From: Tannerella serpentiformis
Lineage (GTDB): Bacteria > Bacteroidota > Bacteroidia > Bacteroidales > Tannerellaceae
Direction of reading: 5' to 3'
Length of the DNA stretch: 64,000 nt
Assembly: GCF_003033925.1 (NCBI RefSeq)
Contig: NZ_CP028365.1
Span: forward strand, 2,790,001-2,854,000
The notes under the pieces: model-generated
What the model saw: only the letters and a program-made list of their open reading frames with translations
Told to the model about the DNA's origin: nothing
Databases searched by the model: none
Program-made: the position numbers and the translations under genes
In this document: positions 8,943 to 62,280 of the stretch, in pieces
Numbering within the stretch: the first letter of the stretch is position 1
Layout: each line of letters opens with the position of its first letter

Positions 8943-9225
8943 GACCCTCGCCGCGGGCTCCAAATCGGTTTTTAGCCCAATCCTCGGCGGGTTTTAGGCT
9001 TCAAATCGGTTTTTGGCGCAATCCTCGGCGGGTTTTGGGCTCCGAATCGGTTTTTGGTGCAATCCTCGGCGGGTTTTGGGCTTCAAATTGATTTTTGGCC
9101 CAATCCTCGCCGGGTTTTGGGCTTCAAATTGATTTTTGGCCCAATCCTCGCCGGGTTTGGGGCTCCGAATCGGTTTTTTGTGCAATCCTCGGCGGGTTTG
9201 GGGGCCGCGGGTGAGGGTCGCCGGC
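8943..9225 (-). repeat. tandem array A, 41-bp period, about 6 units
   Basis: CAATCCTCG recurs at 8978, 9019, 9060, 9101, 9142 and 9183, exactly 41 bp apart. Units share GGGTTTTGGGCT and CGGTTTTTGG. GACCCTCGCCGCGGGC on the left and GCCGCGGGTGAGGGTC on the right form an inverted repeat around the array. It lies between two genes in the prophage and mirrors array B at 15078. Confidence 0.95.
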
Positions 9226-9266
9226 AGCGAGTAGCCTAAAAGTGACAATACAATAACAATTAAACG

Positions 9267-9785
9267 ATGATGTACAGAAATGAGACCACGGGGCGGCGGT
9301 ACACGTTCGTTGCCCCGGACAGTTTAGAGGGGCCGGATGTGGTCATGGTACCTTTCCCGGCCGCGGCGCTGCGCCGGCCTACGGCGGACGGCATCATCGG
9401 TCACGATTGCAATCCTTGCATCGTACCGGTGACTGCCAATGACCCGACCGAGCTGCGCGCCTTCCCGCAGGGCATTCAGCCTGCCTCCATGCTGATCGTG
9501 GAAAACGAGACCGATAAACCGGTGACCGTTTCGGGCATTCCGTGCTACCCCGGGGATACGGTGATGATGTACACCGGCGGCGCGGACAGGTACGTCCGTC
9601 TGGGTGGCCCGGCCCCGTGGGTGAGCCCCACGGAAGCGGCGCCAAAGCCGGAAGAATCTACGGCGGTGAAAGCCTCCGAGGCCGCGAAGGCGCCCGAGAC
9701 GGTGGGACCTTCCGAGGCTACGAAGGCGGAACCATCCACGGAGGCAAAGGCCCCAAAGGCCGACCCCGCAAAAACGAATAAGTAA
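9267..9785 (+). CDS. hypothetical prophage protein
   Basis: A 172-residue protein opening MMYRNETTGRRYTF, with a compact beta-rich first 115 residues (VVMVPFPAAAL, SMLIVENETDKPVTV). An Ala/Glu/Lys/Pro-rich tail from residue 120 is probably unstructured. ATG at 9267 or 9270. It heads the tail gene cluster and is preceded by array A and an 80-bp leader that is duplicated before 15442. I do not recognise a family; a small virion protein is possible. Confidence 0.55.
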   Translation: MMYRNETTGRRYTFVAPDSLEGPDVVMVPFPAAALRRPTADGIIGHDCNPCIVPVTANDPTELRAFPQGIQPASMLIVENETDKPVTVSGIPCYPGDTVMMYTGGADRYVRLGGPAPWVSPTEAAPKPEESTAVKASEAAKAPETVGPSEATKAEPSTEAKAPKADPAKTNK

Positions 9786-9795
9786 CCCTGCCAAG

Positions 9796-10473
9796 GTGTT
9801 TCCCCTCACTTTTTTGTTCGTTCCGAGGCTGCGCGCACTGGCCGACCTCTCTCCCGGCCGTGCGCGCGCCTTCTTTGGGGAACTAAAAACGAAAAGTGAA
9901 AAGCTAGAAACAAAAAGTCCTACCGGTAGGAGAGGCACCCGGCCGCGGGTCGTTTTTCACTTTTCACTTTTCGTTTTTAGTTCCCTGCTCTGCCTGACCA
10001 GCTGCCGCCTGTTGCGCATGCCGTACACGGAGCGCGAGATGACGCAAAGGGAAGTGGCCGAGACGGTGCGCGATACGCTCGTGGTCATCGAACCCGATTC
10101 GGCCCTGATCCGTGCCTATCTGGAATGCCAGTCGGGCAGGGTGGCACTCTCGCGGCTGATCGCCGTGCCCGGCACGCGCATCGTGCCGAACGTGACGCTG
10201 ACGGACGTCCTGACCGATACGGGCTACCGCGGTGCCCTGCTCGATGTGCACTGCCACGAAGACAGCCTCCGCCGGGTGATCGCCCTGCGCGACCGCACCA
10301 TCCGCGAGCTGACTGACCGTGTCCGCACGGAGTATGTCACCGTGGAACGCCCCTTCCGGTGGCATCACCGGGCGCTGATGGGCGGCGGATACGCCTTCCT
10401 GGCCCTTGTGCTCGGTATGGCCGCGTGGCTCATCGTGCGGCTCTACATCAGAGGCCGCGGGGGTATCCCCTAA
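9796..10473 (+). CDS. predicted lipoprotein with C-terminal membrane segment, start uncertain
   Basis: The reliable part begins near 10003: SCRLLRMPYTEREMTQREV and a coiled region to about 10340. A membrane helix (GGYAFLALVLGMAAWLIV) and a basic end follow. This resembles the small lipoprotein/transmembrane proteins found near tail or lysis genes of Bacteroidales phages. Just before it, SSLLCLTSC is a convincing lipobox, but the hydrophobic stretch leading to it is translated from palindromic element 3 (9876-9986). The only upstream start in frame is GTG 9796; ATG 10018 lies after the lipobox. The native N-terminus was probably lost to the element. Confidence 0.5.
   Translation: MFPLTFLFVPRLRALADLSPGRARAFFGELKTKSEKLETKSPTGRRGTRPRVVFHFSLFVFSSLLCLTSCRLLRMPYTEREMTQREVAETVRDTLVVIEPDSALIRAYLECQSGRVALSRLIAVPGTRIVPNVTLTDVLTDTGYRGALLDVHCHEDSLRRVIALRDRTIRELTDRVRTEYVTVERPFRWHHRALMGGGYAFLALVLGMAAWLIVRLYIRGRGGIP
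9876..9986. repeat. AT-rich palindromic element, copy 3
   Basis: GGAACTAAAAACGAAAAGTG at about 9880 is matched by its reverse complement ending at about 9985, with TCCTACCGGTAGGA in between. This is the longest and best-paired member of the family at 2440 and 3158. Confidence 0.8.
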
Positions 10474-10512
10474 TTATTACAACCAACAACCATTAACAAT
10501 TAAAGAAAAGAC

Positions 10513-11064
10513 ATGGCATTAGGAAAGAAAATCCGATCTGTCGGACTGAGCGCCATCCTGTTCGGCGACGTGACAGACGGCGGCGCTAAGATGCCGGAAG
10601 AGATGAAGCAGCTGGCCCGCACCCTGAAGGGCACGGCCACCTTTACCACCGAACAGGATCAGACACAAGAGTTCTTTTGCGAGGAAGAGCCGGATGCCCC
10701 GGTGGAATCCGTGATCTCGGAAAAGGGATTGAAGAACCTCACGTTTAACATTCTCGAATGGGATAACGCAGTGCTGAAAACCCTGTTTGGTGGCAAAGAG
10801 GTGGATGGCAAAATCAAGGATCAGTCTGGCACGGAGCATAACGTGAAAAAGTTCATCCCTCCGAAGGACTACGTGGAAGTGGAAAAGGCGCTTCGTGTGC
10901 TTACGCCTTACAAGGTGGGCTTCGACATTCCCCGCGCAAAGATCCTCGCCCTCTTCCAGTGGAACCTGACCCGTACGGAGATCGCGCAGATCGAAGTCAC
11001 GGCGCGCTGTATGAATCCCGATGGGGACGATAGTGGCACCTACGAGCCATTCAGCTGGACATAA
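10513..11064 (+). CDS. probable tail tube protein
   Basis: A 183-residue, beta-rich acidic protein (MALGKKIRSVGLSAILFG start; TATFTTEQDQTQEFFCEEE; LTFNILEWDNAVLKTLFGG). It sits directly upstream of the tail chaperone pair and the tape measure, the standard position of the tube or major tail protein in long-tailed phages. Its stop overlaps the next start (ATAATGG at 11062). No motif proves the call, which is by size, composition and order. Confidence 0.5.
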   Translation: MALGKKIRSVGLSAILFGDVTDGGAKMPEEMKQLARTLKGTATFTTEQDQTQEFFCEEEPDAPVESVISEKGLKNLTFNILEWDNAVLKTLFGGKEVDGKIKDQSGTEHNVKKFIPPKDYVEVEKALRVLTPYKVGFDIPRAKILALFQWNLTRTEIAQIEVTARCMNPDGDDSGTYEPFSWT

Positions 11065-11558
11065 TGGAAGAGACGGAAAACAAGCGGGCGGTCGAGATCG
11101 ATGTGGCCGACGCGCTGTTGGATACGGGGCTGCTGGTCAAGGTGCCGGCGCCCCGCCCACTGCGCATGTTGGGGATAAAGGTGTTCCCGATGCGCTTTCG
11201 GCGCCCCGTCTACGCCCAACTGTTGCGCATTAGTCGGATGTATGTGCGTATGCACGTCGACCTCGAAACGCTCGAAACGGGCGAGGCTGCCGCGGTGCTC
11301 ACCTCAGCAGCCAAAAACGGCGTCCGTGCCAGTCGGCTGATCGCCCTCGGGCTGATCCGTTCGGGGCTGATGAGTGCGCTGTTTCATCGTGCCGTGGCGG
11401 CCTACCTACGCCGACGGATGGATGCCCAAACGATGGCCGAGCTGGCCAAAGTGATCGTCCTGCTAAGTGGCGCGGGCCATTTTACGACTATTATCAGATC
11501 GATTGCTCATCTACAGGTGACGACTCCGAATCTGAGCCGGGAAGCGACGGGGAGTTAA
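11064..11558 (+). CDS. tail assembly chaperone, short (G-type) product
   Basis: A 164-residue, mostly helical protein between the tube candidate and the tape measure, matching the gpG-type chaperone that coats the tape measure during tail assembly. The frame ends at 11558, but a second conserved-looking frame in -1 register runs past it to 11767. That is the usual arrangement for a G/GT pair made by programmed ribosomal frameshifting. The last about 25 residues of this frame (IIRSIAHLQVTTPNLSREA) overlap that second frame. Confidence 0.55.
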   Translation: MEETENKRAVEIDVADALLDTGLLVKVPAPRPLRMLGIKVFPMRFRRPVYAQLLRISRMYVRMHVDLETLETGEAAAVLTSAAKNGVRASRLIALGLIRSGLMSALFHRAVAAYLRRRMDAQTMAELAKVIVLLSGAGHFTTIIRSIAHLQVTTPNLSREATGS

Positions 11559-11767
11559 GGGACGAAGGCCCCCATAGCCCTTTCGGCGCACTGTTCCAGA
11601 TCGCCTCGCAAGGCGTTTGGACGTGGCGCGAACTGATGTATAAAGTGCCGTGGAGCGTTGTGCTGGCGGCCATCAATGACCAACCCAAATACGGAAAGAA
11701 GAAGCCGGCTGATGAGGGTGAAATCACCTCTGAGGCCGAAGCCAAGAAGTTTTTCAATCTGGCTTAA
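11480..11767 (+). CDS. tail chaperone extension (T part), read by -1 frameshift
   Basis: There is no start codon at its head; it should be read as a fusion to the preceding frame. From GHF, a shift back by one base at CATTTTACG (11478-11486) gives YDYYQIDCSSTGDD and then a well-formed domain. That domain contains FGALFQIASQGVWTWRELMY, VPWSVVLAAIND and EAEAKKFFNLA, ending at 11765-11767. The T-rich run CATTTT lets a Phe tRNA re-pair one base back. The exact slip site is inferred; the good protein content and the register are seen directly. Confidence 0.6.
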   Translation, partial: FYDYYQIDCSSTGDDSESEPGSDGELRDEGPHSPFGALFQIASQGVWTWRELMYKVPWSVVLAAINDQPKYGKKKPADEGEITSEAEAKKFFNLA

Positions 11768-11892
11768 AACGGCGGGACAGCCTCCGCCCCCATAACCCAC
11801 CAACAACTAACGAGAAAAGGCCGTGGCCGACGAAAAAAACGATATACGTAACATTCGAGTTTCAGGGCAATCTGGATAAGGATGTCGACGGC

Positions 11893-14436: not shown

Positions 14437-14560
14437 TTTTCTTTTGCTCCTTTTCTTGCATCAAGGCAAGAAAAGGGGGGCAGCAAAGCAGGTTAGCCGG
14501 CAAAGAGGCGCTGCCGCTGTGAAGAGGGAGAATCCGCAAGATCCCCCCCTCTCTGCCGAC
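14289..14560 (+). repeat. insertion in tape measure: GC-rich element plus hairpin
   Basis: 14289-14326 is a full GC-rich element (GGGGGCGTCTGCGGACGCC head, GGCGAACCTTGCCGGGTAC tail). It is followed by unrelated sequence with an in-frame TGA at 14434 and a long hairpin TTTTCTTGC / GCAAGAAAAG (14449-14480). The native coding sequence resumes near 14562. Confidence 0.7.
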
Positions 14561-14561
14561 A

Positions 14562-14805
14562 GGTATCGATCACGGCTACGGCCATCGAGGGACGGCTGAC
14601 GGCGCTGCTGATCTATCAAGACGCCATCAAACTATCCGTAGGGGGGATCAATCAGACCCTCGTGGTAGGTGTAGCCATACTGACAGAGATACGTGACAAT
14701 ACGGCCTACTGTCGACGCCTCGAGCAGATCGAAAGCGGCATCGGCAGTATGAAACGCGAACTGGAGACAATCAATTCCCGCGGGGTCATCCTGCGAACAG
14801 CATAA
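14562..14805 (+). pseudogene. detached C-terminus of the tape measure protein
   Basis: An open frame in the same register as the tape measure gene, reading ATAIEGRLTALLIYQDAIKL, then VVGVAILTEIRDNTAYCRRL and ending INSRGVILRTA. The IRDNTAYCRRLE-type ending is typical for Bacteroidales phage tape measure proteins. It is cut from the body of the gene by the 14289-14560 insertion. Confidence 0.65.
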
Positions 14806-14888
14806 CGGATAAGACGGAAATGAAAACGAATATCTACATCGATGGCGTGGACGCCCGGGCGGCCTTTGGCGTGTGGGTGGTACGGGGC

Positions 14889-15071
14889 GGGGGGCCTGCG
14901 GGCCCCGGCGGCCTCTGCCGAGGCTGGGAAGTCTGCCGGGTACCCGTGTGTAGGGGCGAACCCTGCATTCGCCCCCATGAGACGCCCCCCGTAGGGCCGA
15001 ATAAATATGTCCGGCACCCGTCCCTGTCGGGACGTTTGTGGGGTGTATGCTGTTGCGCCCCTACACGGATA
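14889..15071. repeat. GC-rich element plus inverted TAGGGGCG composite
   Basis: 14889-14943 is a GC-rich element with a doubled head (GGGCCTGCGGGCCC then GGCCTCTGCCGAGGC) and tail AAGTCTGCCGGGTAC. 14944-15071 is the 8811-8937 composite in reverse complement, from GTGTAGGGGCGAACC through CCGAATAAATATGTCC to GCGCCCCTACACGGATACC. Confidence 0.8.
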
Positions 15072-15077
15072 CCTTAA

Positions 15078-15375
15078 AACTCGCCGAGGATTGCACCAAA
15101 AACCGTTTTGAAGCCCGAAACGTGCCAAGGATTGCACCAAAAACCGTTTTGGAGCCCGAAACGTGCCAAGGATTGCACCAAAAACCGTTTTGGAGCCCGA
15201 AACGTGCCAAGGATTGCACCAAAAACCGTTTTGAAGCCCAAAACGTGCCAAGGATTGCACCAAAAACCGTTTTGGAGCCCGAAACGTGCCAAGGATTGCA
15301 CCAAAAACTGATTTGAAGCCCGCGGCGACCCTCTTTTTGCACCAAAAACCGATTTGGAGCCTGCGGCGAGGGTCG
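15078..15375 (+). repeat. tandem array B, 41-bp period, mirror of array A
   Basis: GGATTGCACC recurs at 15088, 15129, 15170, 15211, 15252 and 15293, exactly 41 bp apart. Units carry AAAAACCGTTTTGAAGCCC and GAAACGTGCCAA. The reverse complement of array A reads GCACCAAAAACCGATT..., so the two arrays are the same family in opposite orientation. The right end has GCGGCGACCCTC and GAGGGTCGCC as an inverted pair. Confidence 0.95.
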
Positions 15376-15462: not shown

Positions 15463-15464
15463 CG

Positions 15465-15507: not shown

Positions 15508-15549
15508 CTTCATCCTGTATGAGTTTGAACTGAATTTGACGGTGATCCG

Positions 15550-30274: not shown

Positions 30275-30705
30275 GTCGTGGGTATTTGTGGAACTTCCGC
30301 AAGTCTCTCGAGAAACCTTTTGGTGTTTGCGGGAGTCCCGCAAGCCTCTCGGAAAACTTTTTGGCGTTTGCGGGAGTCCCGCAAGTCTCTCGGAAAACTT
30401 TTTGGCGTTTGCGGGAGTCCCGCAAGTCTTTCGGAAAATTTTTTGGCGTTTGCGGGAGTCCCGCAAACACCTCGGTAAATGCGGCGGAACTTGCGCGACC
30501 TGCGCAAACGTCTCGGTAAATGCCGTGGTACTTGCGCGGCTTGCACAAACGTCTCGGTGAATGCCGCGGTACTTGCGCGGCTTGCGTAAACGTCTCGGTA
30601 AATGCCGCGGAACTTGCGCAGCTTGCGCAAACGTCTCGGTGAATGCCGCGGAACTTGCGTGGCCTGCGCAAACGTCTCAGTAAATGCGGCGGAACTTGCG
30701 CGGAT
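30275..30705. repeat. tandem array C, 41-bp period, about 10 units in two subfamilies
   Basis: CTCG recurs at 30307, 30348, 30389, 30430, 30471, 30512, 30553, 30594, 30635 and 30676, always 41 bp apart. The first half of the array has the palindrome TTGCGGGAGTCCCGCAA and GGAAAACTTTTTGG. The second half has AACTTGCGCAGCTTGCGCAA and GGTAAATGCCGCGG. Sequence changes mid-array while the phase does not. It lies upstream of htpG. Confidence 0.95.
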
Positions 30706-30844: not shown

Positions 30845-31078
30845 ACTATATCGATTTCCTTTCTTCCGTGTCGATTATTCTTTATTCAATAGAGATTGAT
30901 ACAGTATAATCTCCATTCATTATATCTGAATTCCCTGCAATTGTGAGTTTTCTATCTTTTCTATTGTATTTACAGGTCTGGTATCTTGTACTAAAATCAG
31001 TATGTGCGACAAGAAGTCGTGTAAGTAATTGTTTAACAATTAAATGAAGTAACAAATGTCATTAAAGTCAGATTAAAC
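30845..31078. other. low-GC intergenic DNA
   Basis: Markedly AT-rich compared with the chromosome around it. No gene, tRNA or clear terminator. The short 3' exon of the intron-interrupted gene begins at 31079. Confidence 0.4.
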
Positions 31079-31110
31079 CTATTGTTCCGTCAATAGTAGC
31101 CTACGGTCAC
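31079..31110 (-). pseudogene. 3' piece of a small gene split by the group II intron
   Basis: On the minus strand this reads GT GAC CGT AGG CTA CTA TTG ACG GAA CAA TAG. Joined to the 33408-33609 piece by removal of 31111-33407, it gives a continuous 78-codon frame ending RDRRLLLTEQ. The join is exact in frame (202 + 32 = 234 bases). Confidence 0.55.
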
Positions 31111-33407
31111 GTGCGTCGCTCAAAAGGCGGGGTGCGAAGCTGGCCGGACAAAGTAGCCCTTCCGCAAGGAGGAGCCTGAACCGCGAGGGAACGGCAACTG
31201 CTCTTAGCACAAAAGAGCTGGGGAGCGAGGCTGGGCGGTATGGTTAGCACAAGCGAACTGTTATAAGCGTCGTAATGTATGAACAAGCCAAAGTTGCTGA
31301 TAGGCTTGAACCAAAAAGGTAACGCAGTCGGATAACCCCTTGTATTGTGGGGTTACACGGACAAAGCACTGCCGGCGCAATGGACAGAACCTAACCCGCT
31401 CATTTGTTACTTACACGAAACTTGGTAAGCCCGTATCTCTCCTGCCTATGGGCAGGTAAGCCGACCGCAAGGAAGACCGAATGGGGTGCGGGTATGGGAA
31501 CGCAGAAAAAGCGAATGCCGTCCTGTAACGGGGCGGATAGGAGTTTCAACGTTACTCCGCCGCGAAAGCGGGCAGACTTCTGCAAAGTAACTCTTTACAA
31601 GAAACTATGTAGAACTTTCAAAAAGAAGGAATGCAAATGAACGAGATTAACTTATCGTGTGCACCTGCTGACCGTAGGCAGTGGAACAACTGGACCGACA
31701 TTGATTGGGTCAGATGCGAAACTGCGGTTCAGAAGCTGCAAGGACGTATTGTAAAGGCTCAGAAAGAAGGTCGTCCGGGCAAGGTTAAAGCCTTGCAATG
31801 GACACTGACCCATTCGTTTTACGCCAAAGCATTGGCAGTCAAGCGAGTTACCTCTAACAAAGGTAAGAACACTGCGGGAGTGGATAAAGTTCTCTGGACT
31901 ACTCCCAACGCAAAAATGGGTGCAATCGCCAACCTGAAAAGGCGTGGCTACAACCCGCAACCGTTACGAAGGGTACATATCAAGAAGAGTAACGGCAAAC
32001 TCCGTCCGTTAGGAATACCCACGATGAAAGACAGGGCTATGCAGGCGTTATACCTGATGGCACTAAACCCAGTGGCAGAAACTACCGCCGACAGGCACTC
32101 TTACGGTTTCCGTAAGGAAAGGTGTACGGTCGATGCGATAGAACAATGCTTTACGGTACTTTCAAAAGGGGTGTCTCCGCAATGGATACTCGAAGGGGAC
32201 ATCAAAGGTTGTTTCGATCACATCAGTCATGAATGGTTGCTCGACAATATCCCTATGGATAAGGTCATGCTTCGCAAATGGCTGGAAAGTGGATTTGTAT
32301 TCAACCGACAACTATTCCCCACCGAGGAAGGAACGCCGCAGGGCGGTATTATATCGCCTACTCTCGCTAATATGGCACTTGACGGCCTGCAAGCTATGCT
32401 TGCGGAAAAGTTCAAGCTAAGACGTATCAACAAGGGGCATTTCAACCCTATGGTAAATCTTGTGCGTTACGCAGACGATTTCATTATTACCTGTTCCGAC
32501 AGGGAAACATTGGAATCGCTAATCAAACCCGCAGTAAGCGAGTTTCTTCAAGCAAGGGGGCTTACCCTATCAGAAGAAAAGACGAAGGTTACTCACATCG
32601 AGGTAGGATTTGATTTTCTGGGTTTCAATATCAGGAAATACAAAGGTACGCTGCTTATTAAGCCGTCAAAGAAGAATGTTAAGGAGTTTCTTGCCAAAAT
32701 TAAAGGCATTATTCGTAAGAATCAAGCTATTAGGCAGGACAAACTTATCGGACTTCTAAATCCTTTCATAACTGGTTGGGGCAACTATTACAAAGGTTGC
32801 GTAGCCGCCAAAACATTCAAGAACGCAGACGCACAAATCTTCTACAAACTGTGGGCGTGGGCATTACGCCGCCACCGCCACAAGGGAAAGAACTGGGTTT
32901 ACAACAAGTATTTTCTGTCGAAGAAAGGCCGGGCGTGGACATTCGGTACGACACTGAAGAACAACGGGAAGACATTCCCGTACACACTGAAGTATCTATC
33001 CGACATTGACATGAAGACCAAGCCTATCAAAATCCGCAGTAAAGCCAACCCATTCGACCCGGAATGGCGTCCATACTTTGAGATGCGTAACAGAATGAAA
33101 ATGTTAAGCACTTTCAAAGGAAGACAGGGCTTCCTCAGAATGTGGGAAAAACAAAACCAGCGTTGTCCGTTGTGCGGTGAGATTATCGAACCGGATAAAA
33201 TCTGGACTATCAAGGAATTATCCGACAAGTCCGGCAGATACAAGTTTATCGCCCACGATAGATGCAGTCGTACACTTACCCGTAAAATTAGAGCTTATGA
33301 GCCGGTTTCATAATAGAAACTTTGAGTTGCTTGAGCCGTATGAGGGGAAACTCTCACGTACGGTTCTTAGAGGGGTCGGGAGCAGTAATGCTCCCGACCT
33401 ACTCGAC
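31111..33407 (+). mobile_element. group II intron with encoded maturase
   Basis: The 5' end GTGCGTCGCTC fits the GUGYG consensus, followed by about 510 nt of structured RNA (domains I-III). The reverse transcriptase frame follows at 31637-33313. Domain V GAGCCGTATGAGGGGAAACT continuing to ACGTACGGTTC is at about 33332-33366. Domain VI GGTCGGGAGCA/TGCTCCCGACC is at 33376-33400. The 3' boundary is put at 33407 (CTACTCGAC) because this restores an interrupted frame on the opposite strand. The RNA self-splices and retrohomes with its maturase. Confidence 0.9.
31637..33313 (+). CDS. ltrA: group II intron reverse transcriptase/maturase with HNH endonuclease
   Basis: This multi-domain intron-encoded protein has an N-terminal RT0 region (NLSCAPADRRQWNNW) and RT fingers and palm with KLRPLGIPTMKDRAMQALYL, GDIKGCFDHI, GTPQGGIISPTLANM and the active-site RYADDFII near residue 275. 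LGFNIRKY follows. The maturase X domain (IRKNQAIRQDKLIGLLNPFI, GWGNYYKGCV) comes next. A C-terminal HNH domain has CPLCGEII and FIAHDRCSRT near residues 510-550. AGAAGGA 6 bp before ATG 31637 favours this start over ATG 31631. All key residues are present, so it should be active. Confidence 0.95.
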   Translation: MNEINLSCAPADRRQWNNWTDIDWVRCETAVQKLQGRIVKAQKEGRPGKVKALQWTLTHSFYAKALAVKRVTSNKGKNTAGVDKVLWTTPNAKMGAIANLKRRGYNPQPLRRVHIKKSNGKLRPLGIPTMKDRAMQALYLMALNPVAETTADRHSYGFRKERCTVDAIEQCFTVLSKGVSPQWILEGDIKGCFDHISHEWLLDNIPMDKVMLRKWLESGFVFNRQLFPTEEGTPQGGIISPTLANMALDGLQAMLAEKFKLRRINKGHFNPMVNLVRYADDFIITCSDRETLESLIKPAVSEFLQARGLTLSEEKTKVTHIEVGFDFLGFNIRKYKGTLLIKPSKKNVKEFLAKIKGIIRKNQAIRQDKLIGLLNPFITGWGNYYKGCVAAKTFKNADAQIFYKLWAWALRRHRHKGKNWVYNKYFLSKKGRAWTFGTTLKNNGKTFPYTLKYLSDIDMKTKPIKIRSKANPFDPEWRPYFEMRNRMKMLSTFKGRQGFLRMWEKQNQRCPLCGEIIEPDKIWTIKELSDKSGRYKFIAHDRCSRTLTRKIRAYEPVS

Positions 33408-38292: not shown

Positions 38293-38385
38293 TGAAACGA
38301 AAAGTGAAGTGTGAAAAACGAAAACGAGGAGGAGGAAGACGAGGTAGGGGCCTTAGAAATGGCCTCGTACCCTCGGGCGACGTCT

Positions 38386-38612
38386 GGCAGGCCGCCTGCC
38401 AAAACTACCCGACCCTTAGGTGAGGCTGGCAGGCCGCCTGCCGGGACTATCGGAGTCTTTGGTGAAGGTGTCAGGCCGCCTGCCGGGACTATCGGAGTCT
38501 TTGGTGAAGGTGGCAGGCCGCCTGCCAGGGCTGCCGGAGTCTTTGGTGATGGTGTCAGGCCGCCTGCCAGAGCCACCGGACTCTCAGGCGATGTTGGCAG
38601 GCGGCCTGCCAA
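38386..38612. repeat. tandem array D, 42-bp period, 6 units
   Basis: The palindrome GGCAGGCCGCCTGCC (or its GTCAGGC variant) starts at 38386, 38428, 38470, 38512, 38554 and 38596, exactly 42 bp apart. The spacer is GACTATCGGAGTCTTTGGTGA in the central units. It lies between the glycogen synthase stop and the mannosidase start. Six frames are largely open, but no start or family supports coding. Confidence 0.95.
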
Positions 38613-44109: not shown

Positions 44110-44545
44110 GATCAGCCCCAAGAGACCTCCGTTGAGGTACAGAGATCAAAAACACTTGTCGGGGAGATCTCCGTAGGGGTACGGAGATCAAAAACACTTG
44201 TCGGGGAGATCTCCGTAGGGGTACGGAGATCAAAAACACTTGTCCGGGAGATCTCCGTAGGGGTACGGAGATCAAAAACACTTGTCGGGGGGATCTCCGT
44301 AGGGGTACGGAGATCAAAAACACTTGTCGGGGGGATCTCCGTAGGGGTACGGAGATCAAAAACACTTGTCGGGGAGATCTCTGTAGGGGTACGGAGATCA
44401 AAAACACTTGTCCGAGAGATCTCCGTAGGAGTACGGAGATCAAAAACACTTGTCGGGGAGATCTCTGTAGGAGTACGGAGATCAAAAACACTTGTCCGGG
44501 AGATCTCCATAGGGGTACGGAGATTAAAAGTACCTGCACTTGGAC
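44110..44545. repeat. tandem array E, 42-bp period, 10 units
   Basis: GAGATC in GGAGATCAAAAACACTTGTC recurs from 44142 to 44520 every 42 bp (9 intervals, 378 bp). Each unit has the palindrome GGAGATCTCC and a hairpin CTCCGTA-GGGG-TACGGAG. Both strands are open as 14-residue repeats (RSKTLVGEISVGVR on +), but no start context supports a gene. Located beyond the susD 3' end. Confidence 0.95.
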
Positions 44546-50394: not shown

Positions 50395-51609
50395 TTACGC
50401 TGATGCCGCTTGTTGCTTTCGGATCAGCTTGTCCATGTCTTCCGAGATCTTTTTGTCCGTCACCTGCGCATAGATCTGCGTGCTGGATATGGACGCGTGC
50501 CCCATCATCTTGGCAATGCTCTCTATCGGAATGCCTGCGCTGAGTGACAACGTCCCGAACGTGTGGCGCGCCATATGGAATGACAGGCGTTGTCTGATAC
50601 CACATGCCAACCCCAAGGTGCTCAGTTTGTTATTCATCGTACTGCGGCTGCAACCACGTGGGAAGACAAGGTCGTCACCTTTCTCTTTCACCGTTTGTTC
50701 CTCTTCTTCTCGGAGTCTGTTGAGGATAGTCTCCGCGATCGGATGTAACGGCACGACGGATTCTACTTTCGTCTTCTGCCGTTCCTTGCGGATATACCTC
50801 CGGCCATCTGCCGCCGTTTGAATATGCGAAAATTTCAGACGTTCCATATCCGCAATGGCCAAACCTGTGAAGCAGGAGAAGATGAACATCTGCCGAGCCT
50901 GCTCTGCTTCCTTGTCGTTTACTTTCAGCGCCATGAGCTTGGCTACATCGCTCTTTTGCAAGAAGCGAATCTTCCTTTCCTCCTTTTCATAGGTGGCATC
51001 TTCAAAAGGATTGTAGCGAATGATCCTTTTGCTGACCGCCCGATACATCAATCGGCAGAGCCAACAAAGGTGCCGATTGACCGTCTTCGCTGTAAACCGT
51101 TTCTTCTTGAGATAGAAACGGAACTCCTCAAACAAGTCTCCTGTAACAGCGTCGATGAGTATGTCCTTTCGCCCTTTGTTTTCTATCCAATCGCGAAGCA
51201 TCTTGTCCGAATAGGTGTGATTTCGATAGGTGCCTTCAGACCTTGACCTACCCACGCATGCCTTAACGGATTGCAGTTCGGCCTCGCTCATAGCCAAAAG
51301 GGTGGCAGGAGCAGCGGCAACACCCTGCAAGCGATTCTTGAGTAGTTCAGCACTGACTACTCCGTCCTTCGTAAGCATTTCCGTGTAGGTCTTTTCCACG
51401 AGTTCCCTGAACGCTGCGAGGCGTTGGTTGATCTTCTTGTCGCCAGTTGTCCCCTGCTCACTGTTCCATTCGGCCGGCAGACATTCCTCGCCGGTTGTCA
51501 TGGTCGTGCTTCTGCCATCGATGGTGACACGGCAAAAGATGGCTGTATTACCGTCCGCCTTCGTCTTCTGTCTGTTGATGTAGAATAGAATTTTGAATGT
51601 ACTTCTCAT
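50395..51609 (-). CDS. tyrosine recombinase (integrase), second of a pair
   Basis: This 404-residue Bacteroidota-type integrase has an arm-binding N-terminus (KILFYINRQKTKADGNTAIF) and a SAM-like core-binding domain (residues 110-210). The catalytic domain has FSCFTGLAIADMERLKF (the first Arg position appears as Ala/Glu-Arg nearby), SFHMARHTFGTLSLSAGIPI with H-x-x-R, MMGHASISSTQIYAQV with the Tyr nucleophile near residue 380. It starts 11 bp after the other integrase and is likely co-transcribed. Its target could be an att site or a promoter inversion. Confidence 0.9.
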   Translation of the reverse strand: MRSTFKILFYINRQKTKADGNTAIFCRVTIDGRSTTMTTGEECLPAEWNSEQGTTGDKKINQRLAAFRELVEKTYTEMLTKDGVVSAELLKNRLQGVAAAPATLLAMSEAELQSVKACVGRSRSEGTYRNHTYSDKMLRDWIENKGRKDILIDAVTGDLFEEFRFYLKKKRFTAKTVNRHLCWLCRLMYRAVSKRIIRYNPFEDATYEKEERKIRFLQKSDVAKLMALKVNDKEAEQARQMFIFSCFTGLAIADMERLKFSHIQTAADGRRYIRKERQKTKVESVVPLHPIAETILNRLREEEEQTVKEKGDDLVFPRGCSRSTMNNKLSTLGLACGIRQRLSFHMARHTFGTLSLSAGIPIESIAKMMGHASISSTQIYAQVTDKKISEDMDKLIRKQQAASA

Positions 51610-51620
51610 ATCGGTTTCGG

Positions 51621-52850
51621 TTAAATAGTTAGGTGTAAATCTTCGGTGAAAGAGATTAAGCGATCAAACTCCTCAAACAGCTTTTGGGGAGTGACTTTTG
51701 CATATCGCTCGGTCATGCGCACGGTGCTATGCCCAAGCATCTTGCTGACGGTCTCAATGGGCACGCCCTGCTCCAAGGTGACGAGTGTTGCGAAGGTGTG
51801 TCGGGCCGTGTGCGTGGTGATCGGCAAAGACAGTCCGGCCCTTAGCGAAATCGCCTTCAAGCAAGACAAATAGGTGGCATAGTTCATATAAGGAAGCAGT
51901 GTTTCTCTGGCATCGCTGTGTAGCTGCTCCAACAATCGAAGAGCTTCGGGCAACAGCTTTACGCGGCAGAGGACGCCTGTCTTCTGCCTGCTGAACTTCA
52001 GCCAAAGATTGCCCTCATCGTCGCGAACAAGATGCTCACGGTTCAGTGCCATTAGATCGCAATAGGCCGCGCCGGTGTAACAGGCAAAAAGAAACATATT
52101 GCGGGAGGTTTCCATATCCCCGTCCAAGCTATCAAAACGCAGTGCTTTCAACTTGTCTAACGCATCCTTATCGAGCGCTTTGGGCAGTCGGCTATCCCCC
52201 TTGTCTACATGCACATTGTCGAACAATAAGGTGTCTGCCGCGCCTTCTCGATACGCCAGTTTGCAGACCTTCTTGATAAGGACGATCATGTTGTAGCAAG
52301 TGCTCTGTTTTAGACCAACCTCTCCGGTTACATACTGCTCGAATCGTTTGATAAAGTCCTCCGTAAGCTGCGAAAAGGCCAAGTCTGAAGCGTTATACTT
52401 CGCCCGAATGAACCTCTGCAATTGCGCTCTCGTCTGACGATACGAGGCCAAAGAATTTTCCTTGATGTCTACACCGATGTGCTCTTCCGTTTCCTCGATC
52501 AGGCCATCGAACCGTTCCAAAAGCATCGTTCGACTCTGCACGCTGCCTTGGAAATGCTCCTTGATGTCTGTCGCGTCAAACGGCGAACCCTTGGAAAGCA
52601 GGGATTGATAGGAGGTCTGAACGGCAAGAAGGAGGTTATCCAATCGTCCATTGACTTCGACCGCCTCGCGGCTCTTCCCGTCTACTCGGCTTTCGCGCGG
52701 GTTCCACAAGTCGGGGTTACAAGATAGCTTGCAGCTAAACTGTGCGACGGAACGTCCCAGCGTGATGCGTCCCATGATCGGCGCCTTGCCCGACCTGTCA
52801 CGACTGCTCTTTTTAAGGTAGAGCAACACCTTCATTTTCTTGTCATCCAT
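51621..52850 (-). CDS. tyrosine recombinase (integrase), first of a pair
   Basis: This 409-residue protein has the same architecture as its neighbour but is clearly different in sequence. The N-terminus is MKVLLYLKKSSRDRSGKAPI, the core-binding domain lies near residues 110-200, and the catalytic end has LFACYTGAAYCDLMALNREH, THTARHTFATLVTLEQGVPI and MLGHSTVRMTERYAKVTP with the nucleophile Tyr. Tandem recombinases like these are common in Bacteroidales mobile elements and shufflons. A good promoter box precedes it. No clear att repeat was seen nearby. Confidence 0.92.
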   Translation of the reverse strand: MDDKKMKVLLYLKKSSRDRSGKAPIMGRITLGRSVAQFSCKLSCNPDLWNPRESRVDGKSREAVEVNGRLDNLLLAVQTSYQSLLSKGSPFDATDIKEHFQGSVQSRTMLLERFDGLIEETEEHIGVDIKENSLASYRQTRAQLQRFIRAKYNASDLAFSQLTEDFIKRFEQYVTGEVGLKQSTCYNMIVLIKKVCKLAYREGAADTLLFDNVHVDKGDSRLPKALDKDALDKLKALRFDSLDGDMETSRNMFLFACYTGAAYCDLMALNREHLVRDDEGNLWLKFSRQKTGVLCRVKLLPEALRLLEQLHSDARETLLPYMNYATYLSCLKAISLRAGLSLPITTHTARHTFATLVTLEQGVPIETVSKMLGHSTVRMTERYAKVTPQKLFEEFDRLISFTEDLHLTI

Positions 52851-52877: not shown

Positions 52878-53140
52878 CCCGGTCCAAAGCGCCCGTTACC
52901 TGTGCAGATTCCTGTATATCAATGCAAAAGAACCATGTGCAAGATGTATCCAGTTACCAGCTTTTGCACCATCGTTACCTGTTGCGGAGCGGGGTAATGG
53001 TTTGGTAACTGAACTTCTGCTCGGATCCGCACTTTTCAGCCTTTTACGCTCGACGCAATCGGAAGCATATCCACCCCTTTCCACCTAACAATCAGTCCAC
53101 TTACTTCGACATCGGCTCTTCTGCTTTTAAGGGGAATAGT
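52878..53140. other. intergenic DNA, no gene seen
   Basis: Between the integrase promoter and array F. No convincing frame, RNA gene or terminator recognised. Confidence 0.35.
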
Positions 53141-53515
53141 TGATGACACGCGAGCAACAACAAGCTGGCGCGTGATCAAATTTTGATGACGCATGAGCAA
53201 CAAGAAGCTGGTGCGTGATCAAAATTTGATGACACGCGAGCAAGAGGAAGCTGGCACATGATCAAAATTTGATGACTCGCGAGTGTTTTTACCTCTCGTG
53301 CGATCGAATTTTGATGACACGCCAGCTCTTTTATTTCTCGTGTGATCAAATTTTGATGACGCATGATGAAATTTTGATGACGCACGAGCTTTTTTACCTC
53401 TCGCGTGATCGAATTTTGATGACGCACGAGCTTTTTTACCTCTCGCGTGATCGAATTTTGATGACGCACGAGCTCTTTTACCTCTCACGTGATCAAATTT
53501 TGATCACACAGGGTT
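53141..53515. repeat. tandem array F, 42/43-bp period, about 9 units
   Basis: GATCAAA/GATCGAA cores start at 53174, 53217, 53260, 53302, 53344, 53407, 53449 and 53491 (steps 43, 43, 42, 42, 63, 42, 42). The 63 is one and a half units, with an extra core at 53365, 21 bp after the core at 53344. Each core is the palindrome ATCAAAATTTGAT or ATCAAATTTTGAT followed by GACGC. Two spacer subfamilies are present: AGCAAGAGGAAGCTGG-type and AGCTTTTTTACCTCTCG-type. It lies between divergent genes. Confidence 0.95.
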
Positions 53516-56248: not shown

Positions 56249-56251
56249 CGA

Positions 56252-57535: not shown

Positions 57536-57596
57536 GTCGCCCCAAAGTGCGCCTACCCCTAACTCACCCCACTAATCCTAACTACTCATCATCCCA

Positions 57597-58568
57597 ATGG
57601 AACAAAGAACCGCATCCCTTGACCTGACCGATTTCACAGAGAAAATCAACCGCATACGTGCTGCCATTTCCGACGTCGTAGTCGGACAAGAGCGCGTGGC
57701 CGATCTCCTACTTGCCGCCATCCTCGCCCGCGGACACATCCTCATCGAGGGAGTGCCCGGTGTAGCCAAAACGCTCACCGCCCGACTCCTCGCTGCACTG
57801 ATCGACGCCGACTTCTCCCGTATCCAGTTCACCCCCGACCTTATGCCCTCGGACGTGCTCGGGACGTCGGTCTTCAACATGAAGACCAGCGAATTTGACT
57901 TCCACCGCGGTCCCATCTTTGCCGACATCGTTCTGGCCGACGAGATCAACCGTGCCCCGGCCAAAACGCAGGCCGCCCTCTTCGAGGTCATGGAGGAGCG
58001 ACAGGCCACGATCGACGGAACCACCTATCCCATGAGTCCCATCTACACCATCCTCGCCACCCAGAACCCCGTCGAGCATGAAGGCACCTACAAGCTCCCC
58101 GAAGCCCAGCTCGACCGCTTCCTGATGAAGATCACCATGCAGTATCCCACTCTGGACGAGGAAGTCCGCATCCTGGAGCGCCACCACGCCAACCGTCGCC
58201 TGACCACCCTGGAGTCCGTTCAGCCCGTCATCACCAAGGACGAGCTGCTCCGACTCATCGACTACGTCGGGCATGTCTATGTCGAGCCCGCCCTGCTGCG
58301 TTACATCGCCCTCATCGTCGCCCGTACCCGTACCGCCCGCACCGTCTACCTCGGCGCCTCCCCGCGCGCCTCTGTCGCCATGATGCAGGTAGCCAAATCC
58401 TTAGCCTTGCTCCATGGCCGCGACTTTATCACCCCCGAAGACGTCAAGTCCGTAGCCATCCCCGTCCTTCAGCACCGCATCACCCTCACGGCCGAGGCTG
58501 AAATGGAGGGGCACAACCCGGTGAAGATCATCGGTCGACTGGTCGAGCAAGTTGAAGTCCCCAAATAA
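57597..58568 (+). CDS. MoxR-family AAA+ ATPase
   Basis: This 323-residue ATPase has Walker A LIEGVPGVAKTLTARLLA near residue 50 and Walker B DIVLADEINRAPAKTQAALF near residue 110. Sensor 1 is in ILATQNPVEHEGTYKLPEAQ and sensor 2 in GASPRASVAMMQVAKSLA. It is thought to act as a chaperone inserting or remodelling partners with vWA domains, such as the DUF58 protein encoded 9 bp downstream. Starts with ATG 57597 after a 61-bp gap. Confidence 0.95.
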   Translation: MEQRTASLDLTDFTEKINRIRAAISDVVVGQERVADLLLAAILARGHILIEGVPGVAKTLTARLLAALIDADFSRIQFTPDLMPSDVLGTSVFNMKTSEFDFHRGPIFADIVLADEINRAPAKTQAALFEVMEERQATIDGTTYPMSPIYTILATQNPVEHEGTYKLPEAQLDRFLMKITMQYPTLDEEVRILERHHANRRLTTLESVQPVITKDELLRLIDYVGHVYVEPALLRYIALIVARTRTARTVYLGASPRASVAMMQVAKSLALLHGRDFITPEDVKSVAIPVLQHRITLTAEAEMEGHNPVKIIGRLVEQVEVPK

Positions 58569-58577
58569 GCCCGCGTT

Positions 58578-60050
58578 ATGTTTTTCACTCGGCGCTTCTT
58601 CGTCGTCCTCGCCGCCGTTTTCCTGCTCTACCTCGCGAGCTATGCCTTCCCCGTCTGTTACGAGGCTGCCCGGTGGTTGGGCTACATCCTTCTTACTCTA
58701 TCATACATAGATACCATGTGGGGGGAGACGTTACAAAGTAAGAAAGGGCGTCTCATGGCCCTTTTTTACCTCATTTTCTGCGGCATTCTGTTTGGCTGTC
58801 TATTCGTTCTTTTAAGTCCATCGAAACTCGGCCCAGTGTTTAGTGTGGTAACCTTGATTTTGGTGTGTTTCCTGTGGCCCTCTAGAAAGCGATTCGGAAC
58901 CATCACGGCGCGCCGCACCTGCGCAGACCGCTTCTCCAACGGCGACGAGAATGAGGTGCGCATCACGGTGGAGAACCGCCATCTCCTCCCCGTTCACATA
59001 GACATCATCGACGAGTTACCCGACATCTTCCAGCGCCGCGATGTCCGCTTCCCCGTGGATCTGAAACGTGGCGAAAAACGAGAAATCGTCTACCGACTAC
59101 GCCCCGTCCGTCGAGGCGTCTACAATTTCGGCCGCATCCGACTCTTTATCACCTCTCCTCTTGGCCTCGTGACAACTCGCATCACCGACGGCCAGCCGCA
59201 AGAGGTAAAGGTCTACCCGTCCTACCTCATGCTCAACCAGTACGAGCTGCTCGCCGCCCATCACAACCTCACCGAGCTCGGGATTAAGCGTGTCCGTCGC
59301 CTGGGGCACCACACCGAGTTCGAGCACATCAAAGAGTACGTCCGCGGCGACGACTATCGCACCATCAATTGGAAAGCCAGTGCCCGCCGCCACCAAATCA
59401 TGGTCAACACCTACCAAGACGAGCGCTCCCAGCAGGTTTACAGCGTCATTGACAAGGGTCGCATCATGCAATCGGCCTTCCGCGGCATGACGCTTCTCGA
59501 TTACGCCATCAACGCCAGCCTCGTCCTCTCCTACGTGGCCCTTCGCCGCGAGGATAAGGTCGGCCTTGCCACCTTTTCCAACCATTTCGAGACCTTCCTG
59601 CCCGCCTCCCAACAGGCTGGGCAAATGCAGCAGCTCCTCGAAAGCCTTTACCGACAGGCCACCGACTTCGGCGAGAGTGATTATAGCGCGCTCTCGGTCC
59701 ATCTCAACAAGCACATCACCAAGCGCAGCCTGCTCATCCTCTATACAAACTTCGACAGCGTCGTCGGCATGGAGCGCCAGCTCGAGGCGCTCAAATTCCT
59801 GTCCAACAGGCACGTCGTCCTCGCCGTTTTTTTCGAAAACGCGTCCCTAACGGCCTTCGCCGAGCGTAAGCCGCGTCATCTCTCGGACTATTTTGATCAA
59901 ACCCTTGCCGATAAATTCATTGCCGAGAAGCAACACGTGGTCAACCTGCTCCAGCGCCACGGCATCTACGCCCTTTTGACCGCTCCCGAGCGTCTATCCG
60001 TCGATGTAATCAACCGTTACCTCGAAATGAAGGCCCGGCATGTGATCTAA
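58578..60050 (+). CDS. DUF58/vWA-like protein
   Basis: This 490-residue protein has two N-terminal membrane helices (FFVVLAAVFLLYLASYAFP and FYLIFCGILFGCLFVLL). A beta-rich extracytoplasmic-type region follows (ARRTCADRFSNGDENEVRIT). The DUF58 signature FEHIKEYVRGDDYRTINWKA lies near residues 247-266. A vWA-like end follows (VYSVIDKGRIMQSA, LLILYTNFDSVVG). It is the substrate or partner of the MoxR ATPase. Last gene of the operon. Confidence 0.92.
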   Translation: MFFTRRFFVVLAAVFLLYLASYAFPVCYEAARWLGYILLTLSYIDTMWGETLQSKKGRLMALFYLIFCGILFGCLFVLLSPSKLGPVFSVVTLILVCFLWPSRKRFGTITARRTCADRFSNGDENEVRITVENRHLLPVHIDIIDELPDIFQRRDVRFPVDLKRGEKREIVYRLRPVRRGVYNFGRIRLFITSPLGLVTTRITDGQPQEVKVYPSYLMLNQYELLAAHHNLTELGIKRVRRLGHHTEFEHIKEYVRGDDYRTINWKASARRHQIMVNTYQDERSQQVYSVIDKGRIMQSAFRGMTLLDYAINASLVLSYVALRREDKVGLATFSNHFETFLPASQQAGQMQQLLESLYRQATDFGESDYSALSVHLNKHITKRSLLILYTNFDSVVGMERQLEALKFLSNRHVVLAVFFENASLTAFAERKPRHLSDYFDQTLADKFIAEKQHVVNLLQRHGIYALLTAPERLSVDVINRYLEMKARHVI

Positions 60051-60120
60051 AAAACGAACGACTACAATCGAACAACCCCAAACGCCCTTCCGGGGATGTC
60101 TATCCATGCTATCCCCGGCC

Positions 60121-61145
60121 ATTTTCCCCTTCTCCGGATAAAAACGAACCAAAAACCAGCCCGGTTTTCGTCTGTCCGTGTAGGGGCGTATTGCATACGC
60201 CCTACAAACGGCCACGGCAGGGGCCGGATGAATCTAATTCCGATTCGATTTTTGATTCTCCGAATAAAAACGAACCAAAACCCCGATAAATTTTCGTCCG
60301 ACAGGGTAGGGGCGTATTGCATACGCCTCACAGACGACCACGCCGGTGGTCGAACGGAAAGAAAAATTGCCATTTTTTTGGGTACCCGTGTAGGGGCGCA
60401 ACAGCATACGCCCCACAGACAGCCACGCCGGTGGTCGAATGGATAGAAAAATCGCCATTTTTCAGGTCGCCCGTGTAGGGGCGTATTGCATACGCCTCAC
60501 AAGCGACCATGCAAATGGTCGAATGGATAGAAAAATCGCCATTTCTCAGGTCGCTCGTGTAGGGGCGTATTGCATACGCCCCACAAACGGCCACACCGGT
60601 GGTCGAATGGATAGAAAAATCGCCATTTTTCAGGTCGCCCGTGTAGGGCGCAACAGCATACGCCCCACAAACGGCCACACCGGTGGTCGAACAGATAGAA
60701 AAATCGCCATTTTTTAGGCCGCTCGTGTAGGGGCGTATTGAATACGCCCCATAGACGGTCACGCCAGAGGCCGGATGAATAGAAAAATCGCCATTTTTCA
60801 GGTCGCCCGTGTAGGGCGCAACAGCATACGCCCCATAGACGACCACGGCAGTGGTCGAACAGATAGAAAAATCGCCATTTTTTAGGTCAACCGTGTAGGG
60901 CGCAACAGCATACGCCCCACAAACGACCACTGCAGTGGTCGAACAGATAGAAAAATCGCCATTTTTCAGGTCGTCCGTGTAGGGCGCAACAGCATACGCC
61001 CCACAGACGGCCACGGCAGGGGCCGGATGAATCTAATTCCGATTCGATTTTTGATTCCCCGAATAAAAACGAACCAAAAACCGGTTTATTTTTCCGTTCA
61101 TTTGTCCATTTGCTTGACCATTTGTGGGGCGTATGCAATACGCCC
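60121..61145. repeat. tandem array G, 84-bp units (2 x 42), about 10 units
   Basis: TAGGG in GTGTAGGGGCG recurs at 60181, 60307, 60391, 60476, 60560, 60644, 60728, 60812, 60896 and 60980, i.e. 126, 84, 85, then 84 each. Units contain the hairpin GGGGCGTATTGCATACGCCCC-type (19-21 bp) or a GGGCGCAACAGCATACGCCC form. The rest of the unit is GAAAAATCGCCATTTTTCAG and TGGTCGAATGG. AAAACGAACC also repeats at 60141 and 60267 (126 bp). The end of the block (61110-61145) carries an inverted half unit. Confidence 0.95.
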
Positions 61146-61800
61146 CTACACGGGTACCCGAAAAAATGGCAATTCTTTTATTCCCCGAACGAAACGTAAC
61201 CTTATTCTTATCAGGTTTTCCAATCCCCGACCGAAAATGAATCTCAGATCCATTGGGTTTTCTAATCCCGGACCGAAAGAGATGGCTGTACCCGGCGCAT
61301 AAGGTATGTTCCCGATATGAAAGGATATGATATGCGTTGCAGATGCGAATCTTTTACACTGAAAAAAGTGATTCTGCATTGCATATTTCGATCTATTGAT
61401 CAGAAAGAAGTGCGTATGCATTGCAGATGGTATCTTCATGGATTAAAAGAAGTCTATCTGCGCCGCATATAGGATCCTAATGGATCGGGAGGATACAATC
61501 TGCGTTGCAAAAGATCTTCTTTTATCCTTATAAGATAAGATCTGCAATGCAAATGGCATTCGTTCCATACGATAGAAACGAATTCGCGCCGCATGTGTTG
61601 TTCTTTTATAGCGGGAGATTTCAATCTGCAACGCATATAGCGTTCTTTTATGCTGGGAATATGCCTTATGCGTCAAGGTTGAGGATGTTTTTCGGTCGGG
61701 GATTGGAAAACCCAGCGGGGATAGGGTTACGTTTTATCCGGGGAATGGAAAACCGGGTGGGGATAAGGCCGCGTTTTATTCAGGGAATGGATTTTTGGGT
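61146..61800. repeat. diverged 42-bp-phased array H (TGCnnnGCA)
   Basis: The dyad TGCnnnGCA (one copy CGCnnnGCA) is centred at 61337, 61379, 61421, 61463, 61505, 61547, 61589 and 61631, exactly 42 bp apart, with poorly conserved DNA between. TTTTC at 61216 and 61258, and GGAAAA at 61705, 61747 (then GGATTT 61789), extend the same 42-bp rhythm on both sides. No gene supported. Confidence 0.9.
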
Positions 61801-62280
61801 GGGGATTAGATTCATTCGACCTCTGGCGTGGCCGTCTGTGGGGCGTATTCAATACGCCCCTACCCTGACGGACGAAATTCTATCCATTTTTTCGCCCATT
61901 CGACCTCTGGCGTGGCCGTCTGTGGGGCGTATGCAATACGCCCCTACCCTGACGGACGAAAATTCATCAGATTTTGGGTTCGTTTTTATCCGGTGCAGAA
62001 GAAAATCGCCATTTTCCCGGGTATCCGTGTAGGGGCGTATTGCATACGCCCCACAGGTGGCCACGGCAGTGGTCGAGTGAACGAAAAAAGGAGCGAGGTT
62101 TTTACCGTTCAGGTAGGACGCAAAGGCATACGCCCCACAGACGACCACGGCAATGGTCGAGCGAACGAAAAAAGGGGCGAGGTTTTTACCATTCAGGTAG
62201 GGTGCAAAGGCATACGCCCCACAAACGACCACACAGGTGGTCGAGTGAACAAAAAACCGGCCGGGAATAGGGTTCGTATT
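61801..62280. repeat. inverted-orientation TAGGGGCG units, 84-bp spacing
   Basis: CGCCCCTACCCTGACGGACG repeats at 84 bp (61861 and 61945), then + orientation units with ACGAAAAAAG at 62081 and 62165 and the ACAAAAAA variant at 62249, again 84 bp. The orientation change sits near 61,990-62,030. No gene. Confidence 0.9.

Follow-up and report, generated by a model that had tools for sequence, protein, structure and literature searches.

Why should tandem repeat arrays whose units have little sequence in common share one period? The question is raised by a 64,000-bp stretch of the 3,013,500-bp single-contig genome of Tannerella serpentiformis (bases 2790001 to 2854000; here, the window), in which arrays with a step of 41 to 43 bp, or of 84 bp, recur at several places. 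Here, we report that this step holds throughout the sampled genome, that the units carry dyads (inverted repeats) and an A/T content phased to the DNA helix, and, as the new point, that arrays commonly lie just upstream of genes of an uncharacterized family, DUF6261 (PF19775). The arrays are probably phased double-stranded protein-binding sites, selected for their dyads and spacing, with DUF6261 as the leading candidate for the binder and the module multiplied in this genome. Among the matches listed from the open-access literature, none described DUF6261 arrays or a genome-wide 41- to 42-bp step.

Sampling and array calls

The sample consisted of the window and 40 stretches, each of 20 kb, at positions set beforehand (864 kb, 29% of the genome); the window was included although it had been picked for its arrays in an earlier reading of this DNA (the original prediction). 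Arrays were called with Tandem Repeats Finder, those of at least 75 bp were counted in the sample, and their gene context was judged with a simple purpose-made gene caller. Units were compared by Smith-Waterman score, the highest value among 600 shuffled unit pairs being 14. The genome holds 55 DUF6261 matches, 53 of which were assessed for arrays in their flanks.

One step in many sequences

A period of 40 to 43 bp was found in 137/190 arrays (40 bp, 8 arrays; 41 bp, 64; 42 bp, 61; 43 bp, 4), and these made up 137 of the 145 arrays with periods of 30 to 60 bp, so that the genome-wide period histogram proposed in the original prediction has a sharp peak. Longer units included 84, 126, 168, 210, 252, and 378 bp; a minority were off the step (for example, 48, 57, 93, 95, and 135 bp). 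Every 41- to 43-bp or 84-bp array that had been described in the window was recovered, except for the one at 61333 to 61677, which is a decayed array.

The 137 arrays fell into 67 families at a score of 18 (55 at 16; 79 at 20), most with one period per family. The units had been described as mostly unrelated, which is too broad genome-wide: 26/67 families hold at least two arrays, and at a score of 16, the biggest similarity cluster takes in 44/137.

Together, the sample held 118 array blocks (4.5% of its DNA; about 410 blocks when extrapolated to the genome), 102 of which were mostly outside called genes, in keeping with the earlier statement that most arrays lie in intergenic gaps. The genes flanking 98 blocks were codirectional in 49 cases, divergent in 25, and convergent in 24, with four more blocks at stretch ends; in array-free gaps of at least 300 bp, the counts were 54, 18, and 17. 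As these orientations are close to each other, the idea that all arrays act as terminators or promoters was rejected.

Dyads and helical phasing

Among the 47 families with at least four copies, the best dyad exceeded the 95% shuffle level in 33; inverted repeats are thus frequent, and the claim that almost every unit contains one goes too far. In 12/47 families, the distance between the best and the second-best dyad was exactly half a period (1.0 expected with the rest of the unit shuffled). Around the dyad centers of 27 families, A/T content was low at 0, 10 to 11, and 20 bp and peaked near 6 to 8 and 14 bp. The fourth harmonic of the unit (10.25 to 10.5 bp) was strongest for A/T, with a z score of 5.6 against shuffles (above all 400) and 5.5 against random genomic sets (above all 300); for AA/TT, it reached 7.0 against shuffles and 6.8 against random genomic windows, and harmonics 2, 3, and 6 were raised less. 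The sites would lie on one face of the helix, as like dyads are four turns apart and, in some families, alternating dyads are two turns apart.

Dyad arms change together between loci of one family (for example, AAAACCCGGCGGGTTTT and AAAATGAGGGTCATTTT), with 250 of 280 dyad cells paired over 11 families and 15 double-change cells. Many of the printed families have arrays that start on the dyad and also end on it, between flanks that differ. Sense-strand mismatches in dyads were G.T in 52 cases and A.C in 52, and this equality points to an element of DNA, not RNA.

Spacing also outlasts the letters. In the decayed array of the window, copies of TGCNNNGCA stand at 61333, 61375, 61417, 61459, 61501, 61543, and 61627, at steps of 42 or 84 bp in an in-phase printout; as a motif, TGCNNNGCA showed no clear excess in the window over shuffles (26 versus 21). 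The rarity of indels gives no clean argument for selection on spacing. Indel bases per substitution were 0.073 in 40- to 43-bp arrays and 0.225 in 29 small short-period intergenic arrays; the values for genes, 82- to 126-bp arrays, and the remaining long-period intergenic arrays were 0.079, 0.105, and 0.115.

Arrays upstream of DUF6261 genes

A 40- to 43-bp array, or one at a two- or threefold multiple of this period, was present within 700 bp upstream of the domain at 36/53 DUF6261 genes; in 34 of these 36 cases, no more than 350 bp separate the end of the linked array from the first ATG (34/53 genes inside that limit). Within 700 bp downstream, an array was found at 12/53 genes, in five cases in the tail-coding part of the gene itself. 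When one rule with the 350-bp limit was applied to all genes of the sample, upstream arrays occurred at 9/15 DUF6261 genes and 91/546 others (Fisher's test, 2.6e-4); downstream, the counts were 1/15 and 91/546. In the 550 bp upstream, the top autocorrelation lag fell in the 42 family in 34/36 array-positive and 11/17 array-negative DUF6261 regions.

The promoter-like motif TAnnTTTG occurred between array and gene 10 times in sense and once in antisense orientation, compared with 3 and 0 inside the array and 9 and 8 in the 300 bp before it. Taken with the equality of G.T and A.C mismatches, these motifs suggest a DNA element upstream of the promoter.

The 36 linked arrays formed 34 clusters (with six longer units shortened to 42 bases for this purpose), and 36 random stand-alone arrays formed 24 to 27 on average, with a maximum of 34 to 35 in 500 draws. 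Of the stand-alone arrays, 45/107 had a linked relative at a score of 18, and DUF6261-linked families covered stand-alone arrays no more than random arrays did (42 to 50% versus 40 to 49%). Three near-identical DUF6261 paralogs share an array family; their similarity begins at the first dyad of the array and stops within two bases of the stop codon, and the sequences beyond these limits are unrelated. Many paralogs (L255 to L284) carry a K/P-rich repeat tail with a PDIxLPEE end, common to otherwise diverged copies.

Other genomes

Three genomes served as a comparison: one of another GTDB family (G281), a second of the same genus (G174), and one of the genus of the window's genome (G002). The repeats of G281 and G174 were unknown before the test; that G002 contains arrays of this kind was already known, though not their presence at these loci. 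At a minimum score of 40, an array lay upstream of DUF6261 in 9/12, 2/2, and 5/6 cases, respectively (16/20), with periods of 40 to 42, 82 to 84, 104, and 122 to 123 bp. Their units were unrelated to the linked units of T. serpentiformis (best score, 14) and nearly all unrelated to each other (best score, 16). The distance from array end to DUF6261 domain had a median of 334 bp elsewhere (n = 17) and 335.5 bp here (n = 36), and 20/23 DUF6261 upstream regions from other records had their top autocorrelation lag in the 42 family.

In Parabacteroides distasonis TSDC17.2-1.1, whose DUF6261 loci lie on records labelled plasmids, a 42-bp array of 4.0 copies (2590 to 2756 of L345) ends 97 bp before the start of one DUF6261 gene. 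Upstream of a second, in an array region at 2499 to 2676 of L346, five CTTAGGCCTAAG-like dyads (0 to 3 mismatches) stand at 2499, 2540, 2582, 2623, and 2665, spaced 41, 42, 41, and 42 bp, and the repeat finder reported no tandem array at this locus. Six CTTAGGCCTAAG-like matches were found in the 6.5 kb (2.06 expected), a number reached in 2/200 shuffles. The DUF6261 proteins encoded at these two loci are WP_005857779 and WP_011966849.

More widely, 17/31 arrays of period 28 to 140 bp in 2.6 Mb of other Bacteroidota lay at 40 to 44 or 80 to 86 bp; Tannerella genomes are among those counted, and some of the arrays lie in open frames. DUF6261 was present in 31/41 genomes of the genus and 40/296 of the order (this genome in both) and in 13/50 named relatives. 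A match accompanied 6/9 array-bearing stretches and 7/41 others (Fisher's test, 0.006; 0.065 without two doubtful arrays), and the genome-level association is therefore modest. Four other Bacteroidota genomes had no 40- to 43-bp array in 100 kb each, and three of them had no DUF6261 match.

The DUF6261 protein

The AlphaFold2 model of DUF6261 has a confident all-helical core and a disordered tail (mean predicted local distance difference test score, 80.7). No other Pfam domain, and no Rep domain, was above the cut-off, and nothing in the sequence searches clearly resembled a known nuclease or transposase. The best PDB profile match lay in the P-rich tail (V8 protease; E value, 9e-5), and one paralog matched two PHROGs of unknown function (E values, 0.0006 and 0.0014). 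Given that the fold matches are uninformative and the core is slightly acidic, we put DUF6261 forward as a candidate DNA binder, a hypothesis that offers the simplest account of the linkage.

Proposed mechanism and points against it

Traits of operator or architectural arrays are present: dyads, fixed helical spacing, no RNA bias, and a position upstream of the promoter in those gaps where one is seen. We suggest that the dyads and their four-turn (41- to 42-bp) spacing are selected and the letters are not, the step being set by a protein that would multimerize on one helix face. The unit of function would be a two-part module, in which the array typically stops some 20 to 200 bp short of the first ATG of a DUF6261 gene and, where a promoter is recognizable, lies on its far side. 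DUF6261 may be the binder, autoregulated through its own array, the alternative being another DNA-binding protein. In this genome, multiplication of the module would have produced 55 genes whose arrays have diverged, and stand-alone arrays would have reached several hundred sites, most of them intergenic.

The original prediction had offered two causes for the shared period. Selection on spacing is supported by a near-fixed period across dissimilar families and genera, by A/T phasing, and by spacing that survives sequence decay. A machinery that copies DNA in 42-bp steps found no support, the P. distasonis dyads keeping step without a detectable tandem repeat.

Several observations weigh against binding by DUF6261, or against the module as a general explanation. 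Only about 9/118 sampled blocks lie upstream of DUF6261, arrays face gene starts and gene ends equally (95 versus 98), and the array of the window's own DUF6261 gene lies downstream. Six of the 36 linked arrays have fewer than 2.5 copies, and a promoter is recognizable in the array-gene gap for only 9/36 genes. Upstream regions of other genes are themselves enriched for the step (42-family top lag in 25/76), and the fourth harmonic is raised for purines too (z score, 4.3), though not for keto bases (0.5). Elsewhere, the fourth of the Bacteroidota genomes sampled at 100 kb, Marinifilum (G047), has 12 DUF6261 matches, yet no 40- to 43-bp array there; three genomes without a DUF6261 match (L103, L125, and L065) have arrays of 80, 83, and 86 bp; and five of six genomes from the genus of the window's genome lack a 40- to 43-bp array in the 18 to 82 kb examined in each. 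Short-read assemblies tend to break at arrays. As for the protein, no fold stood out for the predicted helical bundle, its core has 29 K+R against 33 D+E, and the matches from sequence searches were all weak and mostly in the P-rich tail.

A bolder form of the proposal, which we hold to be possible and rather speculative, makes DUF6261 a new DNA-organizing family: each paralog would polymerize on its own 41- to 42-bp dyad array, set its own expression, and find its stand-alone copies, giving tens of orthogonal pairs per cell. The geometry of the protein would fix the step, and diversification would change the letters.

Alternative explanations

It is conceivable, though unlikely, that array and DUF6261 gene form a mobile cassette, a transposable or gene-converting unit in which DUF6261 is the mobility protein and stand-alone arrays are nonautonomous remnants, like miniature inverted-repeat transposable elements (MITEs) beside a transposase. 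Such a cassette would fit the boundaries of the three near-identical copies, the excess of stand-alone over linked arrays, and the stand-alone arrays with linked relatives, and some arrays do lie within IS982-type MITEs with CGTGAGTTCGAYGTAAG ends. These ends occur at 56 sites in the genome when up to two mismatches are allowed, and the reversed pattern at none; the palindromes inside the MITEs that they bound differ between elements. Two elements of 1,022 to 1,023 bp with the same ends (G000:C1:920033-921054, L192; 2499191-2500213, L193) carry broken IS982-like transposase frames (NF033520, 128 and 126 bits, below the cut-off of 130). Inverted ends are not general, however: they reached the 99% level in 9/116 blocks, with 8 in the direct-orientation control, and a general MITE explanation was rejected on these counts. 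Target-site duplication was not apparent by eye in the three near-identical copies, whose end at the stop codon, in a tail shared by paralogs, fits paralog recombination equally well. No nuclease or transposase similarity stood out for DUF6261, and mobility alone leaves one step in unrelated sequences unexplained.

Rather improbable, too, is a single sequence-tolerant factor, a nucleoid or cruciform-binding protein that reads phased dyads by shape while sequences drift, with DUF6261 genes merely among its targets. Such a factor would explain why dyads persist as the letters change, why families with no detectable likeness to each other share half-period dyads and 10.5-bp A/T phasing, and why arrays far outnumber DUF6261 genes. 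It leaves the placement of arrays before DUF6261 genes in more than one genus without an explanation. A further point against it is that linked arrays differ more among themselves than do random stand-alone ones, a difference to which the spread of a few stand-alone families or the cutting of six units may contribute. Candidate binders of phased DNA include HU/IHF and HU-HIG nucleoid proteins. The genome has only three HU-HIG matches (PF18291), and HU-HIG was rejected as the paired multicopy family.

Ordinary slippage minisatellites, in which the arrays would owe their step to a single ancestral array and template switching at palindromes would later have scrambled the letters, are already disfavored, and we give this account little chance. 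Units are alike within an array, partial similarity joins some families (the 44-array cluster), and paired arm changes are also expected from template switching. Against this stand the same step with unrelated units in other families and genera (the 17/31 arrays above), the 41/42-bp dyads of P. distasonis without a detectable tandem repeat, which slippage alone would hardly give, and a helical phasing within units that slippage does not explain.

Transcribed hairpin arrays acting as a leader or attenuator of DUF6261 mRNA are least credible of all: 7-3-7 dyads could form hairpins and a few arrays end near the first ATG, but RNA hairpins were rejected on the equal G.T and A.C mismatches, the promoter motif, where recognized, lies between array and gene, flanking genes show no clear orientation preference, and the only Rfam matches in the window are to a group II intron.

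Comparison with known systems

Plasmid iterons are direct repeats at helical-turn spacing upstream of a Rep gene, and they form diverging repeat-protein pairs. The DUF6261 module resembles them in having repeats directly upstream of a gene (the 36/53 here and 16/20 elsewhere) whose product may bind them. It differs in that no Rep domain was found in DUF6261, which therefore does not count as a replication initiator, that DUF6261 exists in tens of copies in one chromosome, and that two dyads are often found within 41 to 42 bp.

The repetitive extragenic palindromes (REP) and bacterial interspersed mosaic elements (BIME) of enterobacteria are dispersed intergenic palindrome arrays with one core sequence and go with REP-associated tyrosine transposases (RAYT). 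The present arrays are likewise dispersed, intergenic, and palindromic; unlike REP/BIME, they have no single palindrome core, given 67 families in 864 kb, and the genome has one Y1_Tnp match, a count on which a Y1 transposase was rejected as the array source. A reverse transcriptase was rejected in the same way (8 RVT_1 matches at seven genome places); both rejections rest on counts, and no link to the arrays was sought. Clustered regularly interspaced short palindromic repeats (CRISPR) were rejected since the whole unit repeats in the arrays printed; cas genes were not sought.

Two kinds of dispersed tandem repeats have been described from Porphyromonas gingivalis, of a related oral genus: 464/PgRS, with 41-nt units, and BrickBuilt, with 23-nt units. 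Both are said to be MITE-like, with inverted ends, and BrickBuilt to be intergenic (PMC4596501). Dispersal in tandem and, for 464/PgRS, the 41-nt unit are points of likeness; inverted ends are exceptional here. The passages of that paper on these repeats mention no gene link, dyads, or helical phasing, and the word helical is absent from its text (PMC4596501). A second repeat class of T. serpentiformis, with a 22-bp step and ATTAAATACCCCTCGGAACGGT-like units (L028, 4877 to 5126; L009, 17655 to 17970; L020, 13464 to 13777), is close to the 22- and 23-nt repeats described from P. gingivalis (PMC4596501).

Features of the window

The arrays of the window and its DUF6261 gene are listed in Table 1. 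Palindromes of the GTAGGGGCGTATTGCATACGCCCC type occur at 60130 to 62280 and genome-wide, the 60.0- to 62.4-kb stretch having 369 genome matches, and further dispersed palindromes are present in array flanks. Mu-like prophage genes lie at 1388 to 26799 (AAA_22, DUF3164, and Portal_Mu with Phage_Mu_F plus a PBECR2 domain); a 3.8-kb part of the prophage recurs near 111 to 115 kb (second copy, L287), where the array 8955 to 9203 is inverted relative to its flank. A group II intron occupies 31078 to 33407, with a reverse transcriptase gene at 31631 to 33313. The DnaK gene is 92% identical to its counterpart in a Tannerella assembly. SusC/SusD-like and Arm-DNA-bind_5 integrase genes were among the Pfam matches, and two neighboring tyrosine recombinase genes with Arm-DNA-bind_5 (50395 to 52850) adjoin the 53.1-kb array.

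Table 1. DUF6261 gene and tandem arrays of the window (a dot marks features without a strand)
Feature	Position	Strand	Copies	Family	Remarks
DUF6261 gene (PF19775)	7617..8594	+			Pfam E value, 9.2e-37; K/P-rich tail ends GNPDITLPEE
41-bp array	8955..9203	.	6.1	3	Downstream of the window's DUF6261 gene
41-bp array	15083..15361	.	6.8	3	Orientation opposite to 8955..9203
41-bp array	30297..30466	.	4.1		Contains TTGCGGGAGTCCCGCAA dyad
41-bp array	30462..30702	.	5.9	8	Phase matches adjoining array 30297..30466
42-bp array	38385..38611	.	5.4	12	GGCAGGCGGCCTGCC dyad
42-bp array	44122..44529	.	9.7	6	GATCTCCGTA...TACGGAGATC dyad
42/43-bp arrays	53140..53504	.		14
84-bp array (2 x 42)	60319..61019	.	8.3		GGGGCGTATTGCATACGCCCC-type palindromes
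Decayed 42-bp array	61333..61677	.			TGCNNNGCA at 42-bp steps, hardly anything else repeated
42-bp array	61697..61791	.	2.3
84-bp array	62042..62256	.	2.6		Consensus unit resembles that of 60319..61019

Implications

A fixed spacing shared by sequences that are otherwise unrelated is a sign of a physical constraint on DNA, of a kind that escapes sequence searches. For part of the intergenic DNA of these bacteria, it supplies a reading rule, a 41- to 42-bp step upstream of DUF6261. An uncharacterized family with up to 55 matches per genome offers a ready set of natural candidate protein-DNA pairs, in which it can now be asked whether one protein fold may set the step of the arrays while recognition diversifies.

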